From Candidatus Pelagibacter communis (GTDB taxonomy: Bacteria > Pseudomonadota > Alphaproteobacteria > Pelagibacterales > Pelagibacteraceae): 64,000 nt of DNA. The notes beneath the pieces were generated by a model that did not search any database, was not told the origin of the DNA, and saw nothing but the letters and a program-made list of their open reading frames with translations. The stretch spans positions 62,001 to 126,000 of the forward strand of contig NZ_CVSS01000051.1 in the NCBI RefSeq assembly GCF_001180185.1, given 5' to 3'. Below, in pieces: positions 11,843 through 16,650 of the stretch. Each line of letters opens with the position of its first letter. Within the stretch, counting starts at the first letter, position 1. Position numbers and translations under genes: made by a program.

Positions 11843-12904
11843 ATGCATTGTCAAAAACTCTTATATATATTTTTTTTGGTTCTAGCTCTAAATTTATCTT
11901 TTTTTTCCACAAAAAAAGTAAATGCAAAAGTTTTTTATATAGATCAAGTAGAAATTTCAGAAAAATTAGTAAATAACTTTAACAAAGACATTCTTATTAA
12001 CAAAGGATTTGAAAAAGCATTTAAGGATTTAATGACTATGATGGTTAAATCTAAAGATTTATCAAAAGCTATTGATGTAAGTTTAAATGAAATTAAAAGT
12101 ATGATAGAAACTTTTACAATAAAAAAAGAAAATTTCATTAATAATACTTATAATTTAAATTTAGGAGTATCTTTTAATAAAAAAAAAATCTTTAATTATT
12201 TAAGCTCAAAAAATATATTTCCTGCGCAAATTATTAAAGAAAAATTTTTTTTTATACCAGTTATTATAGATCAATCTACAACAGATCTATTGATTTTTTC
12301 AAATAACCCAATTTATGAATATTGGAAAAAAAATGATAAAAAAGATTATTTAATTGAATATATATTACCAACAGAAGACTTAGAGGATATTAATTTAATT
12401 AAAAAAGAATATCTCAATCTAGAAAATTACGATTTTCAAGATATTATTAAAAAATATTTTCTAGACCATTCTATCATTGCCTTATTTTTTAAAGATGAAA
12501 ATCAAGTGAAAATTTTGTCAAAAATTAATATTAAAGGGAATACATTTATTAAAAGTGATTCATTTTCAGAAATTGATTTAAAAAATATTGATAACTTAAA
12601 TTTATTAATCGGTGATTTAAAAATTATTTACGAAGATTTTTGGAAAGATAATAATTTGATTAATTCATCCATTAAGCTTCCATTATTTATACAAGTTAAA
12701 AATAATAATTTTGATTTTATTTCTAAATTTGAAGAAACTTTAAATACAATTGATCTGATAAATAGTTATTCTATAAGTAGATTTAATAAAGATTATATTT
12801 TTTACGAAATAATTTTCAATGGAACGACCAAAAACTTTATCAATATAATGGAAGACAATGATTATAAATTTAATACACAGAAAAAAACTTGGATTTTAGA
12901 ATGA
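11843..12904 (+). CDS. DUF2066 family exported protein
   Basis: A 353-residue protein with a clear signal peptide (YIFFLVLALNLSFF, cleavage probably after KKVNA). The remainder has no catalytic motif I recognise. Size, secretion and position just upstream of hda match the DUF2066 family, found between purM and hda in many proteobacteria. The ATG at 11843 gives a compact signal peptide; an in-frame TTG at 11828 would add five residues. It ends in an ATGA overlap with hda, so the two are translationally coupled. Function unknown. Confidence 0.7.
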   Translation: MHCQKLLYIFFLVLALNLSFFSTKKVNAKVFYIDQVEISEKLVNNFNKDILINKGFEKAFKDLMTMMVKSKDLSKAIDVSLNEIKSMIETFTIKKENFINNTYNLNLGVSFNKKKIFNYLSSKNIFPAQIIKEKFFFIPVIIDQSTTDLLIFSNNPIYEYWKKNDKKDYLIEYILPTEDLEDINLIKKEYLNLENYDFQDIIKKYFLDHSIIALFFKDENQVKILSKINIKGNTFIKSDSFSEIDLKNIDNLNLLIGDLKIIYEDFWKDNNLINSSIKLPLFIQVKNNNFDFISKFEETLNTIDLINSYSISRFNKDYIFYEIIFNGTTKNFINIMEDNDYKFNTQKKTWILE

Positions 12905-13563
12905 AAAATTTAAATCAATTGATTATAAAATTTGATTATGAGCAAAATTTTAAAGATGATGATTTTTATATTTCAGACAGCAATAAGCATATTTTTAATT
13001 TATTAAACAGTTGGCCAAAATGGGAAAAGAACTTTTTAAATATTATAGGTGAAAAGTTTTCAGGTAAAACACATCTCGTAAATATATTTATCAAAAGATA
13101 CAAAGGTATTAAACTTGATGCAAATTTATTGAAAGCAGATGATTTAAAAATGATTAAAATCCATGAAAATATAATTTTAGAGAATATAAGTGAAGATATT
13201 GATGAAAAATTGATTTACAGTTTATTTAATATTATTGATATTGATAATAAGTATATTATTGTAACTTCACGTAAGCCTATTGTGGATTTAAATTTTTCAT
13301 TATTAGATTTAAGATCTAGAACAAAAAATTTTCTTTTGCAAACTATTGAAAAACCCGATGATGAGTTGATGTTTGCTTTAATTTTAAAAAATTTATCTGA
13401 CCGTCAAATATCCATAGATAAGAAACTTATAGAATTTATTATTAAAAGAATAGATAGATCGTATGACAAAATATTTGATTTCATATATAAAGTTGACGAA
13501 TTAAGTTTAAAAAAGAAAAAACCAATAGATTTTAAAATTATAAAAGAGGTTTTAGGAGAGTAA
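12901..13563 (+). CDS. hda: DnaA-related replication regulator Hda/HdaA
   Basis: A 220-residue AAA+ protein related to the DnaA ATPase domain but lacking the DNA-binding domain. Hda bound to the sliding clamp stimulates ATP hydrolysis on DnaA and so limits re-initiation. The N-terminal QLIIKF (residues 6-11) sits where the clamp-binding QLxLxL/F motif lies in the family. The P-loop is GEKFSGKTH (50-58) and Sensor 1 is IVTSRKP. The Walker B position reads IILENISE rather than the usual acidic pair, so ATP hydrolysis by this protein itself is doubtful. The start is ATGA-coupled to the DUF2066 gene. Confidence 0.85.
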   Translation: MKNLNQLIIKFDYEQNFKDDDFYISDSNKHIFNLLNSWPKWEKNFLNIIGEKFSGKTHLVNIFIKRYKGIKLDANLLKADDLKMIKIHENIILENISEDIDEKLIYSLFNIIDIDNKYIIVTSRKPIVDLNFSLLDLRSRTKNFLLQTIEKPDDELMFALILKNLSDRQISIDKKLIEFIIKRIDRSYDKIFDFIYKVDELSLKKKKPIDFKIIKEVLGE

Positions 13564-15351
13564 TTGAGTAAAAAATATAGAACACATAATTGCGGTGAGC
13601 TTAATATAAAACATGTTGGAAAGGATGTATTACTTTCTGGTTGGATAAATAAAAAAAGAGATCATGGAAACTTATTATTTATAGATCTAAGAGACAATTA
13701 TGGAATTACACAGTGTATTATAGATAAAGAAAACTCAAAATTTAATGAACTAGAAAAAACTCCATTAGAAACCGTAATAAGAATTGAGGGAAAGGTAGTA
13801 AATAGGTCAGAGGATACAATTAACAAAGAAATAAAAACTGGTGAAATTGAAATTGGAATTCAAAAATTTAATGTTTTAGGCACTTGTAAAGAATTACCCT
13901 TACCAGTATTTACAGACCAAGAATATGCTGAAGATATAAGACTCAAATATAGATTTTTAGATTTAAGAAGAAAAAAAATTCATGAAAATATTATTTTAAG
14001 GTCAAAAGTAATATCATTTATAAGAAATCAAATGCATGAATTAGGTTTTTTAGAATTTCAGACACCTATTCTAACATCTTCTAGTCCAGAGGGTGCTAGA
14101 GATTTTTTAGTTCCAAGTAGATTAAATCCTGGTAAATTTTATGCGCTTCCTCAAGCTCCACAGCAATTTAAACAATTAATTATGGTCTCAGGATTTGATA
14201 AGTATTTTCAAATCGCCCCTTGTTTTAGGGATGAAGATGCTAGAGCTGACCGAAGTCCTGGTGAATTTTATCAATTAGATTTAGAAATGTCATTTGTAGA
14301 GCAAGAGGATGTATTTAATGTGGTTGAAACATTGTTGATAAATACTTTTAAAGAATTCTCAAAGAAAAAATTACTTTTTAATAATTTTCCTAAAATTTCT
14401 TATAAAGAAGCTATGCTCAAATATGGATCTGATAAACCAGATCTTAGAAATCCTCTACTCATCAATGACATCACAGAAATTTTTTTAAGAGAAGATGTTT
14501 CTTTTGAAATTTTTAAAAGACTTGTAAAGAAAGGATCAATGGTAAGATGTATTGTAACCAAAAAAACTAAAGACAAGCCTAGAAGTTTTTTTGACAACAT
14601 TGATAAATGGGCAAAAAATCAGGGAGCATCTGGATTAGCATATTTTACGTTAGAAAAAGATAAAGAAGTTTCAGGAAAAGGACCAATTGGAAAATTTTTT
14701 TCTAAAGAGTCTTTAGAGCAAATTATGAGTTTAACAGGAGCTGAAATAGGCGATAGTATATTTTTAGCTTGCTCAAATAAAAAAGATCTTGAGAGAATAA
14801 CATCTCTTGCGAGAGAAAAAATTGCAAAAGACTTAGATTTGATTGATGATGATACTTTTGCTTTTTGCTGGGTTATAGATTATCCAATGTTTGAAATAAA
14901 CGATGTAACTAATAAAATTGAATTTAGCCATAATCCTTTTTCTATGCCTCAGGGTAGTTTAGATAATATTAATTTTGAAAAACCCTTAGAAATATTAGCC
15001 TATCAGTACGACATAGTTTGTAATGGAATTGAATTATCATCAGGGGCTATAAGAAATCATATACCAGAACTAATGTATAAACTTTTCTCCATAGCGGGAT
15101 ACTCAAAAAATGATGTAAACCAAAAATTTAGTGGGATGATTAATGCCTTAAGTTATGGAGCACCTCCCCATGGTGGTATAGCACCTGGTATTGATAGGAT
15201 AGTAATGTTACTCGCAAATGAGAAAAATATTAGAGAAGTAACAATGTTTCCTATGAATCAAAATGCTCAAGATTTGATGATGAATGCACCTTCAGATATA
15301 AATGATAAACAGTTAAAAGAATTAAACTTAAGCCTTAGATCTAAAAAATAA
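13564..15351 (+). CDS. aspS: Aspartyl-tRNA synthetase
   Basis: A class II synthetase of 595 residues, the bacterial length that includes the GAD insertion. It has an N-terminal OB fold (VLLSGWINKKRDHGNLLFIDLRD), motif 2 (FRDEDARADRSPGEFYQLD) and motif 3 (GGIAPGIDRIVMLL). The start is TTG at 13564, immediately after the stop codon of hda in the same frame; no ATG lies near the N-terminus. The ribosome binding site AGGAGAG (13554-13560) sits at the right distance, inside the end of hda. Alphaproteobacterial AspS is often non-discriminating (Asp/Asn), which I cannot tell from sequence alone. Confidence 0.96.
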   Translation: MSKKYRTHNCGELNIKHVGKDVLLSGWINKKRDHGNLLFIDLRDNYGITQCIIDKENSKFNELEKTPLETVIRIEGKVVNRSEDTINKEIKTGEIEIGIQKFNVLGTCKELPLPVFTDQEYAEDIRLKYRFLDLRRKKIHENIILRSKVISFIRNQMHELGFLEFQTPILTSSSPEGARDFLVPSRLNPGKFYALPQAPQQFKQLIMVSGFDKYFQIAPCFRDEDARADRSPGEFYQLDLEMSFVEQEDVFNVVETLLINTFKEFSKKKLLFNNFPKISYKEAMLKYGSDKPDLRNPLLINDITEIFLREDVSFEIFKRLVKKGSMVRCIVTKKTKDKPRSFFDNIDKWAKNQGASGLAYFTLEKDKEVSGKGPIGKFFSKESLEQIMSLTGAEIGDSIFLACSNKKDLERITSLAREKIAKDLDLIDDDTFAFCWVIDYPMFEINDVTNKIEFSHNPFSMPQGSLDNINFEKPLEILAYQYDIVCNGIELSSGAIRNHIPELMYKLFSIAGYSKNDVNQKFSGMINALSYGAPPHGGIAPGIDRIVMLLANEKNIREVTMFPMNQNAQDLMMNAPSDINDKQLKELNLSLRSKK

Positions 15352-16170
15352 TTATTTTTTCCCTTTGAGGTTTATTTTTACATCAGACAAATCAACAAGA
15401 TTTTTTTTATAATTGTTTCTCACAAATCCTTTGCTGGTTATATCTTTTACTATTTTAAGTAATTGATTTTGATCATCTGAATTTTGTTCTATATTATTAA
15501 TATCTGACCCGCCTATTGATGGGGTATGAGCTAAATCTTCTCTATTTAGATATGAAATTGCCAATTCTCTAAAAATATAATCTAGAATTGATGTGGCGCT
15601 AAGAATTCTATCATTCCCAACTACTTTACCAGAAGGTTCAAATTTGGTACCTATGAATGCACTAATATATTCGTCCAAAGGTACCCCATATTGCAAACCT
15701 AATGATACTGCTATTGCAAAATTATTCATCAACGCTTTGACTAATTCTCCTTCTTTGCTTGTATCAATAAATATTTCTCCAATTTTACCATCTTCATACT
15801 CTCCTGTATGTAAATAAACTTTATGATCACCAATAGTTGCTTTTTGTATGTAGCCTTTTCTTCTATCTGGCATACTAAATCTTTTACCAGACTTATCAGA
15901 GTTATATAAATTTTGAGTAAAAGTTTTTTGAAAAGCATCTTTTTTTAAAGTCTCATTAGATGCAACTATATCAATTTTTTTATCAACTACTTTTTTTTCA
16001 TTAGCATCTAAATTTTTTGTTTTTCTGTTATCCAACTTAACATCTAGAATTTCAAATTTTCCATCATCTCTTTTTTCTAAGTTCTTTAGTTCTTTGTCGT
16101 TTATTTCATCAAGATAATGATTAACTTTGAATGTACACGTGTAATAAGTTTCAACTAAATATTTTGCCAT
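15352..16170 (-). CDS. Free-standing domain resembling the C-terminus of B12-dependent ribonucleotide reductase (TSCPD-type)
   Basis: A 272-residue protein. Residues about 100-225 match my memory of the C-terminal part of class II ribonucleotide reductase Nrd[56 protein letters not shown] and [19 protein letters not shown]. The catalytic ten-stranded barrel, its radical-site cysteines and the cobalamin site are absent. The first 90 residues are lysine/aspartate rich and unlike NrdJ. The gene ends flush against aspS, stop to stop, and is divergent from the NDUFA12 gene. The upstream ribosome site GGAG supports the ATG at 16170. Its role is unknown; it could be a regulator or a partner of another reductase. 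Confidence 0.7.
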
Positions 16171-16284
16171 TTTACTCCAATTTTAAAATTTTATTTTGAT
16201 TTAAGAATCAATTAATTTATATACAAATCCATATTTTAGTCTAATTTAATTTATACAATTTAAAATTGAATAAAAAAAAAATTA

Positions 16285-16650
16285 ATGTTGACACTTTTTA
16301 AAAAAATATTCACTTGGTGGAATCGGGACACTTTCGGAACTAGGTTAAAAACTATTTTTTTTGGGAAATTTGTAGGTTCAGACTCTTTTGGAAATAAATA
16401 TTATGAGAGTAGAAATGGAAAAAGATGGGTGATATATTCTGATGAAATTGATGCGACTAAAATTCCTGTAGAATGGTATTCTTGGATGCATTTCACACCA
16501 AACAAAATTGAAAAAAAACATAATCTTGATAAATATCAGTGGCAAAAACCTCATCAATCAAATTTAACAGGTACTCAAAAAGCTTATTATCCAAATAAAG
16601 ATAAAGAAAATGTTATTGATAAGAAATATAAAAGTTGGAAGTCTAAGTAA
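16285..16650 (+). CDS. NDUFA12-family NADH:ubiquinone oxidoreductase accessory subunit
   Basis: A 121-residue protein of the NDUFA12 (17.2 kDa subunit) family, a supernumerary complex I subunit shared by alphaproteobacteria and mitochondria. Typical features are TFGTRLKTIFFGKFVGSD, GNKYYESRNGKRWVIY, a proline/tryptophan segment VPVEWYSWMH-like (here IPVEWYSWMHF) and the C-terminal YQWQKPHQSNLTGT. It is expected on the matrix/cytosolic side of complex I. The next gene, a DUF2155 protein, starts 41 bases before its stop. That pairing is common in alphaproteobacteria. Confidence 0.9.
   Translation: MLTLFKKIFTWWNRDTFGTRLKTIFFGKFVGSDSFGNKYYESRNGKRWVIYSDEIDATKIPVEWYSWMHFTPNKIEKKHNLDKYQWQKPHQSNLTGTQKAYYPNKDKENVIDKKYKSWKSK

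Follow-up and report, generated by a model that had tools for sequence, protein, structure and literature searches.

The locus analyzed here, from Candidatus Pelagibacter communis, raises the question of why a genome would encode, as a protein in its own right, the domain that forms the C-terminal tail of the vitamin B12-dependent (class II) ribonucleotide reductase (RNR) NrdJ, and what such a protein might do once separated from the enzyme. Within the window (the whole stretch of 64,000 nucleotides that was analyzed), the free-standing TSCPD protein of 272 aa, hereinafter the orphan, is encoded at 15352..16170 on the minus strand, from an ATG start through the stop codon, which are exactly the coordinates proposed in the earlier note, where no strand was given. 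The protein consists of four parts, all on the minus strand: a head (aa 1-55; 16006..16170) that is conserved throughout the window's own family (f1; the sister family in the same order is denoted f2, and family and genus labels are codes), does not derive from NrdJ and contains a single cysteine, C12; a variable linker (aa 56-96; 15883..16005) that is mostly predicted to be disordered and is modelled with low pLDDT; the TSCPD, or IscU-like, domain (aa 97-220; 15511..15882) that contains no cysteine, matches Pfam and yields a confident AlphaFold2 model; and a basic C-terminal tail (aa 221-272; 15355..15510) that is homologous, up to approximately aa 261, to the stretch that follows TSCPD in NrdJ. 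The flanking genes, which belong to a conserved slot, are the divergent NDUFA12 (16285..16650, plus strand) and the convergent gene for aspartyl-tRNA synthetase, aspS (13564..15351, plus strand; named from sequence alone), which abuts the orphan. A scan of 15250-16400 detected 5 promoter-like sites, compared to a mean of 8.1 in shuffled sequences, and no terminator.

The earlier note interpreted this protein as a free-standing C-terminus of the B12-dependent NrdJ with a head unrelated to that enzyme, and both parts of the interpretation hold. The Pfam profile for TSCPD, PF12637, covers aa 109-204 with a score of 51.3 bits (cut-off 22.8), which makes the orphan a member of this family. The NCBIfam profile for alphaproteobacterial NrdJ, PRK07562, aligns with aa 58-261 through positions 931-1133 of its 1222 (E 1.3e-66); the score of 225 bits falls short of the 1737 bits set for the whole enzyme, so that the orphan is not itself an NrdJ. 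In a profile-profile comparison with six intact NrdJs, aa 86-261 of 20 f1 orphans match NrdJ positions 947-1121 with a probability of 100 (E 1.2e-62), and the head gives a probability of 0.1 only. Regarding the catalytic barrel (PF02867), the Pfam search of the orphan shows TSCPD alone above the cut-off, and the best blastp match of the orphan to the barrel of an intact NrdJ aligns 21 residues with E 0.14. The two outcomes that the note regarded as fatal to its interpretation, the lack of any NrdJ or TSCPD profile match and the presence of a catalytic half elsewhere in the contig, were not observed: both profiles match, and PF02867 finds no such half there.

The zinc ribbon that in NrdJ comes after the post-TSCPD stretch is missing from the orphan, and aa 97-272 are free of cysteine. 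No cysteine was found in the TSCPD part and the tail in 110 loci, and C12 of the head, the sole cysteine of the orphan, is kept in 109 of these (some contigs, such as L016 and L102, are apparently counted twice, so that these loci, as well as the 80 used for the identity estimates below, are partly non-independent). Because there is no cysteine outside the head, electron relay, the known job of the NrdJ tail, is ruled out for the orphan; metal binding, a role that had also been proposed, is likewise unsupported in any cysteine-based form.

Among known systems, the cysteine-rich C-terminal domain (CRD) of class II NrdJ (available text of Loderer 2017, PMC5704485) shares with the orphan the homologous IscU-like/TSCPD domain and some of the sequence that follows, and the f2 nrdJ occupies the same chromosomal slot; in contrast to the CRD, the orphan stands alone, without a catalytic chain, the zinc ribbon and the terminal pair of cysteines, and possesses a new, conserved head. 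Pseudomonas aeruginosa has a split class II RNR in which the tail is likewise a separate protein, NrdJb (Crona 2015, PMC4520616, in the portion available). Given that the type of domain is shared with NrdJb (PMC9669993, PMC4520616, as far as the accessible text goes), the orphan could be envisaged as the relay subunit of a split class II reductase, with the catalytic chain encoded elsewhere. The six C-terminal cysteines of the NrdJb or CRD relay (zinc ligands plus redox pair) are missing from the orphan, however, and the reductases of the carrier genomes do not fit this interpretation either.

The orphan's own genome (G000; 1.01 Mb, 77% complete) contains a single match to the RNR large subunit (PF02867), namely a class I NrdA of 645 aa that ends in CLSCQ, is encoded on another contig, scores 1010 bits with the NCBIfam profile PRK09102 (cut-off 620) and is adjoined by NrdB (PF00268); thus, the search for other reductases that the note recommended uncovered a class I pair and no class II chain. 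In 19 of the 20 further f1 genomes searched, the sole RNR match is an NrdA-type frame of 646-664 aa; the remaining one, G157, yielded no match. NrdJa, the class II partner that NrdJb requires in the same genome, was not found with PF02867 in any of the 21. Thus, in contrast to NrdJb, which is paired with NrdJa and carries the relay cysteines, the f1 orphan lacks both and occurs together with class I NrdA, so that a role as the second half of a split class II enzyme is practically untenable. The orphan is a variation on the separate CRD and NrdJb that falls outside the definitions of both NrdJ and NrdJb. The four f2 genomes that were searched encode NrdJ alone; the sister families f1 and f2 rely on different reductases.

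The orphan is present, as a single copy in its own genome, in 34 of the 37 genomes of the genus, the present one included. A match to the TSCPD tail was found in 186 of the 197 sampled genomes of the order. In f1, 138 of 144 sampled genomes matched, across six genera and always in an open frame of 269-307 aa; all 11 single-contig genomes of the family encode the orphan, and the six misses are all assemblies in 20-30 contigs with a completeness of at least 90% (frames and single-contig genomes were counted by hand). This presence in 34/37 genomes of the genus and 138/144 of the family shows that the open reading frame is not a chance occurrence. In f2, 48 of 53 sampled genomes matched, with frames of 908-1204 aa among the 12 matches listed; in a genus-level search, 23 of 24 f2 genomes contain the match in a frame of at least 1196 aa, and G053 in a piece of 141 aa. 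A search for the head across the class matched 4 of 289 genomes, three of them from f1; the fourth match (G443; E 2.6e-4), which is short and lies inside an open reading frame of a ribosomal-protein operon, was rejected as a chance similarity. Thus, among these 289 genomes, no other family has the head, and no f2 genome was among the matches of that sample.

The genomic context points to the origin of the orphan. In two f2 genomes (G037 and G039), the gene order is accB-accC-DUF2155-NDUFA12-nrdJ-aspS, with intact NrdJs of 1194 and 1203 aa (the names of accB and accC were read from sequences), and a third (G045), with nrdJ encoding 1202 aa next to NDUFA12, shows the same order up to the contig end. 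In the window and in one genome from each of the other five f1 genera (G061, G065, G075, G105, G124), the orphan occupies the place between NDUFA12 and aspS; the exceptions to the extended order are that DUF2155 was undetected in G065 and that the order beyond DUF2155 differs in G124. Because f1 shares the NDUFA12-aspS slot with the intact nrdJ of f2, the catalytic part of nrdJ was lost at its original site in f1. About 950 residues preceding the tail are gone, and the slot is now filled by a new head of 55 residues, a linker, the old TSCPD domain and the basic stretch.

The phylogeny of free-standing and fused forms, which the note called for, is in accord with this scenario. A domain tree built from 59 rows groups the f1 orphans into a single clade (support 100/99) that is nested within a clade of 14 rows (96/89) together with the NrdJs of f2 and f117 and decayed forms from f65 and f147; the inner branching of the 14-row clade is not settled, and the bootstrap had not converged. 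An origin of the orphan from phages was considered and rejected on the basis of synteny. None of the phage matches in 7 phage records extends into the head (the query starts at 91 or 97).

The selective pressure on the orphan was gauged from the best 80 of 589 confirmed related loci, all from Pelagibacterales/Pelagibacteraceae. The TSCPD domain (aa 97-220) has a median identity of 96.0% (minimum 91.1%), followed by the head with 90.0% and the tail with 81.7%; for the linker, the median is 41.5%, based on 12 of these 80 loci, those with an alignment that covers 80% of its length. The medians for the neighboring proteins are 89.7% for AccC, 81.3% for AspRS, 77.7% for NDUFA12 and 62.4% for DUF2155 (PurN was represented by 3 loci and Ndk by none), so that, of all segments measured at the locus, the domain shows the highest conservation, above the adjacent housekeeping proteins. 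Compared to the window, the other five f1 genera show 84-87% identity in the domain and 62-72% in AspRS. Strong conservation of this part is seen also in intact enzymes, the domain being 93-99% identical between f2 NrdJs compared to 82-84% for the barrel; this difference all but vanishes in comparisons that involve the divergent L266 (51-55% for the domain, 51-54% for the barrel).

These patterns bear directly on the suggestion of the earlier note that the protein was either a relic or a domain that gained an independent use: it is both, a relic by virtue of the locus shared with the f2 nrdJ and yet strongly conserved. A transitional, functionless leftover in the process of decay is suggested by its descent from a lost enzyme and by the 6 of 144 sampled f1 genomes without a match; nevertheless, the 96% median identity of the domain, above AspRS and AccC among the best 80 of 589 loci, the occurrence in every one of the 11 single-contig f1 genomes and in six genera, and the conserved new head render this explanation very improbable. 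The orphan is almost certainly a remnant of nrdJ that formed in place and is retained under selection, and the persistence of the tail as a separate, extremely conserved protein suggests that it has a job of its own.

A comparable free-standing form was identified in another family, f10, which we guess to be HIMB59-like. The domain was matched in 27 of 32 genomes of the f10 order, in frames of 270-301 aa with the exception of two of 211 and 172 aa. As in f1, the f10 protein is free-standing and, in the three genomes where the locus was inspected, adjoins NDUFA12; it differs by its head, which looks helical by eye, by the retention of the four ribbon cysteines (with the final redox cysteine missing) in the six proteins aligned, and by its placement in a separate clade of the domain tree (100/100). 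Eight of the nine f10 carriers searched have an NrdA-type match, one of them (G518) also a second NrdA, of class Ia; the ninth (G539) has none. The AU test did not reject a single clade of f1 and f10 (p-AU 0.079); we favor separate origins because f2 keeps nrdJ at the locus, the heads differ and so does the fate of the ribbon.

Barrel decay with retention of the domain was observed in five further families (f28, f65, f101, f147 and f152; L260-L265), which encode decayed NrdJs of 526-912 aa. In the Pfam search of one protein per family, f65 excluded, f147 and f28 showed no barrel match at E 0.01, f101 and f152 showed a partial one, and the two active-site patterns that were sought are absent from all five families. 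When compared with a single intact NrdJ (L268), the domains from f65, f147 and f152 are 82-84% identical, and their barrel matches show 30-42% identity over 91-203 residues; the domains from f28 and f101 are just 51% and 42% identical to the same protein, indicating that conservation is not uniform. The decayed genes of f28, f101, f147 and f65 adjoin NDUFA12; that of f152 does not. On the domain tree, the state with a lost barrel requires at least 7 changes (several rows are long branches). Thus, the tail of this enzyme has outlived the enzyme more than once. In one f147 genome (G408), the decayed, tail-keeping NrdJ coexists with an NrdJ_Z of 582 aa (G408:C4:49139-50536), and the two possibly form a trans-complementing pair. 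The decayed pseudoenzymes (L260-L265) can be expected to carry annotation as B12-dependent reductases, a label ('vitamin B12-dependent ribonucleotide reductase') that on such genes would wrongly predict a need for B12.

To what, then, could the domain owe its retention? We propose that the job of the orphan would be a non-catalytic binding that was already present inside NrdJ and survived the swap of the enzyme. As the best guess for the partner, the orphan may dock to class I NrdA, which we put forward tentatively, as somewhat less likely than not: we place NrdA first because the domain evolved together with a homologous barrel, NrdJb docks on NrdJa and the CRD shifts oligomers. In the available portions of the respective papers, NrdJb is described as docking at a site close to the C-terminus of NrdJa and to the edge of the cofactor cleft (PMC4520616), and the CRD as changing the oligomer state in the presence of dATP and dGTP (PMC5704485). 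The complete account, a selected nrdJ remnant with NrdA as the partner, seems to us about evenly balanced between right and wrong. No operon link between NrdA and the orphan was seen.

The co-occurrence of the domain with class I reductases weakens the case for NrdA. Within the class, 64 of 289 genomes have NrdA-type matches alone, and the domain is kept in 9 of the 64 (from f1, f10, f28, f101 and f152), a tally made by hand from matches with a best E weaker than 1e-90, our own cut, that includes fragments (G443, G447, G467) and incomplete genomes; in G325 (f101), which is 10% contaminated, the co-occurrence of domain and reductase is unsure. Present in just 9/64 genomes of this kind, the domain is no partner on which class I RNRs depend in general. 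The NrdAs typed from f1, f10 and f28 genomes score above the cut-off of PRK09102. The ATP-cone was found in a single frame of 151-167 aa, the size of NrdR, in each of eight domain-less genomes with class I RNR alone that were checked (G236, G279, G280, G297, G344, G358, G389, G417); G276 contains a further ATP-cone in a 693-aa frame. In f1, ATP-cone frames of 153 aa (G062) and 154 aa (G061) were detected, with none found in the incomplete G000. Because the domain-less genomes share the pattern of an NrdR-size ATP-cone, an NrdA without an ATP-cone, which could have created a need for such a regulator, does not set the keepers of the domain apart. The picture is further complicated by other reductases in the carriers, namely the second NrdA of G518 and the NrdJ_Z of G408, which the decayed protein of that genome might serve. 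Together with the RNR-less viral forms described below, the 9/64 co-occurrence and the NrdR-sized ATP-cone protein in f1 speak against docking to NrdA.

Structural models offer a different perspective on the domain. The AlphaFold2 model of the whole orphan has a mean pLDDT of 69.4, being good for the domain, moderate for the head and mostly low for the linker and tail; the domain alone (aa 97-222, 60 diverse rows) is modelled with a mean pLDDT of 94.6 and pTM of 0.88, in the order three strands, two helices, a short strand and a final helix. With the full model, VIA-align places IscU (1q48) at the top (Z 5.0, rmsd 6.7, 103 aligned residues), but a variant of LplA (Z 4.9, rmsd 4.3, 87 aligned), the PUR repeats in PURA (Z 4.6, rmsd 4.1, 86 aligned) and another IscU (2z7e; Z 4.5, rmsd 3.1, 91 aligned) are all tied with it; SufU, CsdE of the SufE family and LplA C-terminal domains have Z of about 4-5. 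IscU and SufU scaffolds use three conserved cysteines as cluster ligands, and the orphan has no cysteine in aa 97-272 that could serve in this capacity. Neither model had a Foldseek match with an E of 0.001 or better, and a PDB sequence search with the orphan gave nothing at E 1; bacterioferritins, the sole PDB matches of the domain profile (E 0.25 or worse), were taken as chance. PADLOC gave no hit. The predicted structural neighbors agree with the IscU-like fold described for the tails of class II reductases in the available text of PMC9669993, without establishing it by themselves.

The ranking of IscU 1q48 first, with SufU, CsdE and LplA next, along with the adjacency of NDUFA12, a subunit of complex I, could suggest that the orphan is an accessory factor in a process other than ribonucleotide reduction or nucleic acid metabolism, for example, protein assembly, with a fold of the IscU/SufE/LplA type from which cluster or sulfur chemistry was lost. 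This appears rather improbable to us, given that the lack of domain cysteines in 110 loci leaves no scaffold or persulfide chemistry to the domain, the linkage to NDUFA12 is old synteny common to intact nrdJ, and the Z values are low.

Free-standing domains occur in viruses as well. Among the matches listed (159 loci), at least 51 on viral contigs have the free-standing domain, representing 39 distinct contigs by hand count, several of them near-copies and many fragments. Within 3 kb of the domain, 5 of the 39 listed contigs contain sequence from the RNR catalytic part and 6 a terminase large subunit, and the ribbon with two CxxC motifs is missing in 15. In the 16 viral records that were searched whole, many of them fragments, PF02867 is absent from 15 and present in 1. 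The TSCPD gene is located upstream of the terminase large subunit in L329, L332, L333, L335, L336 and L342 (PHROGs confirms the terminase of L332 and L342; that of the other four is assigned by similarity), with one small gene in between in L329, L332 and L342; PF02867 is absent from L329, L332, L333 and L342, which were searched whole. Three contigs (L310, L317, L341) contain TSCPD-only genes of 129-144 aa without the zinc ribbon, that of L310 near a DNA helicase gene and that of L317 near a virion structural gene.

Such viral forms are relevant to another possible function, namely that the domain is an independent module for binding nucleic acids or nucleotides, for which the placement in NrdJ is incidental and which in SAR11 acts at replication, repair or translation. 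Under this scenario, R97, R103, R104, K105, K110, K117, R188 and R201 would hold DNA, RNA or dNTPs, and all eight are invariant in the 20 aligned f1 rows; the lack of PF02867 in 15 of 16 viral records, the terminase within 3 kb in 6 of 39 contigs and the weak structural similarity to the PUR repeats in PURA (Z 4.6) point in the same direction. Still, basic patches are common, the viral records are often fragments and include several near-copies, and a Z below 5 may reflect a common arrangement, LplA, IscU and SufU being tied with PURA; we consider nucleic acid or nucleotide binding, as well as the assignment of this role to the eight residues, unlikely, if less so than a part in protein assembly. 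A more far-reaching reading, which in our estimate falls slightly short of an even chance, is that the IscU-like/TSCPD domain is a module with its own job, independent of ribonucleotide reduction, with NrdJ as one carrier, which SAR11, f10 and several phages use alone. If true, the module can outlast the enzyme because those lineages depend on its other job.

SAR11 are, according to abstracts, the most abundant bacteria in the ocean. The portion of Burnim 2022 (PMC9669993) available to us describes, in the long C-termini of class II reductases, an IscU-like domain of the same type as the orphan, for which a role 'has not been reported', and places it inside NrdJ or NrdJb, with no orphan form without a class II RNR described there. 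Titles and abstract beginnings in the open-access literature name no free-standing NrdJ tail without a catalytic chain, and no co-mention of TSCPD with NrdJ or ribonucleotide reductase was found in that literature. RNR terms are absent from PMC10308909 and PMC3815206 (HIMB59), and the accessible parts of PMC9531940 and PMC10547690 contain nothing on a free-standing tail. The state seen in SAR11, in another family whose genomes are small and, through decay of the barrel, in further lineages amounts to the natural reverse of a domain-deletion experiment, with the enzyme removed and the tail kept. Work on the CRD and NrdJb has been hampered by aggregation, as stated in the available text of PMC5704485. 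With a domain of about 125 residues that stands alone, lacks cysteine and is modelled with confidence, the function of the tail should become open to direct tests.

Two additional observations concern the neighborhood and the intact enzymes. A short Hda-like protein is encoded at 12889-13563 of the window, on the plus strand, and matches the Hda lid domain (PF22688) with 28.9 bits (cut-off 27). An intact f2 NrdJ (L249:7278-10859) contains an insert at aa 290-363 that resembles the N-terminal domain of YebC/TACO1, with matches to PF20772 (E 3.5e-5) and PRK12378 (E 1.3e-6), both under the cut-off.
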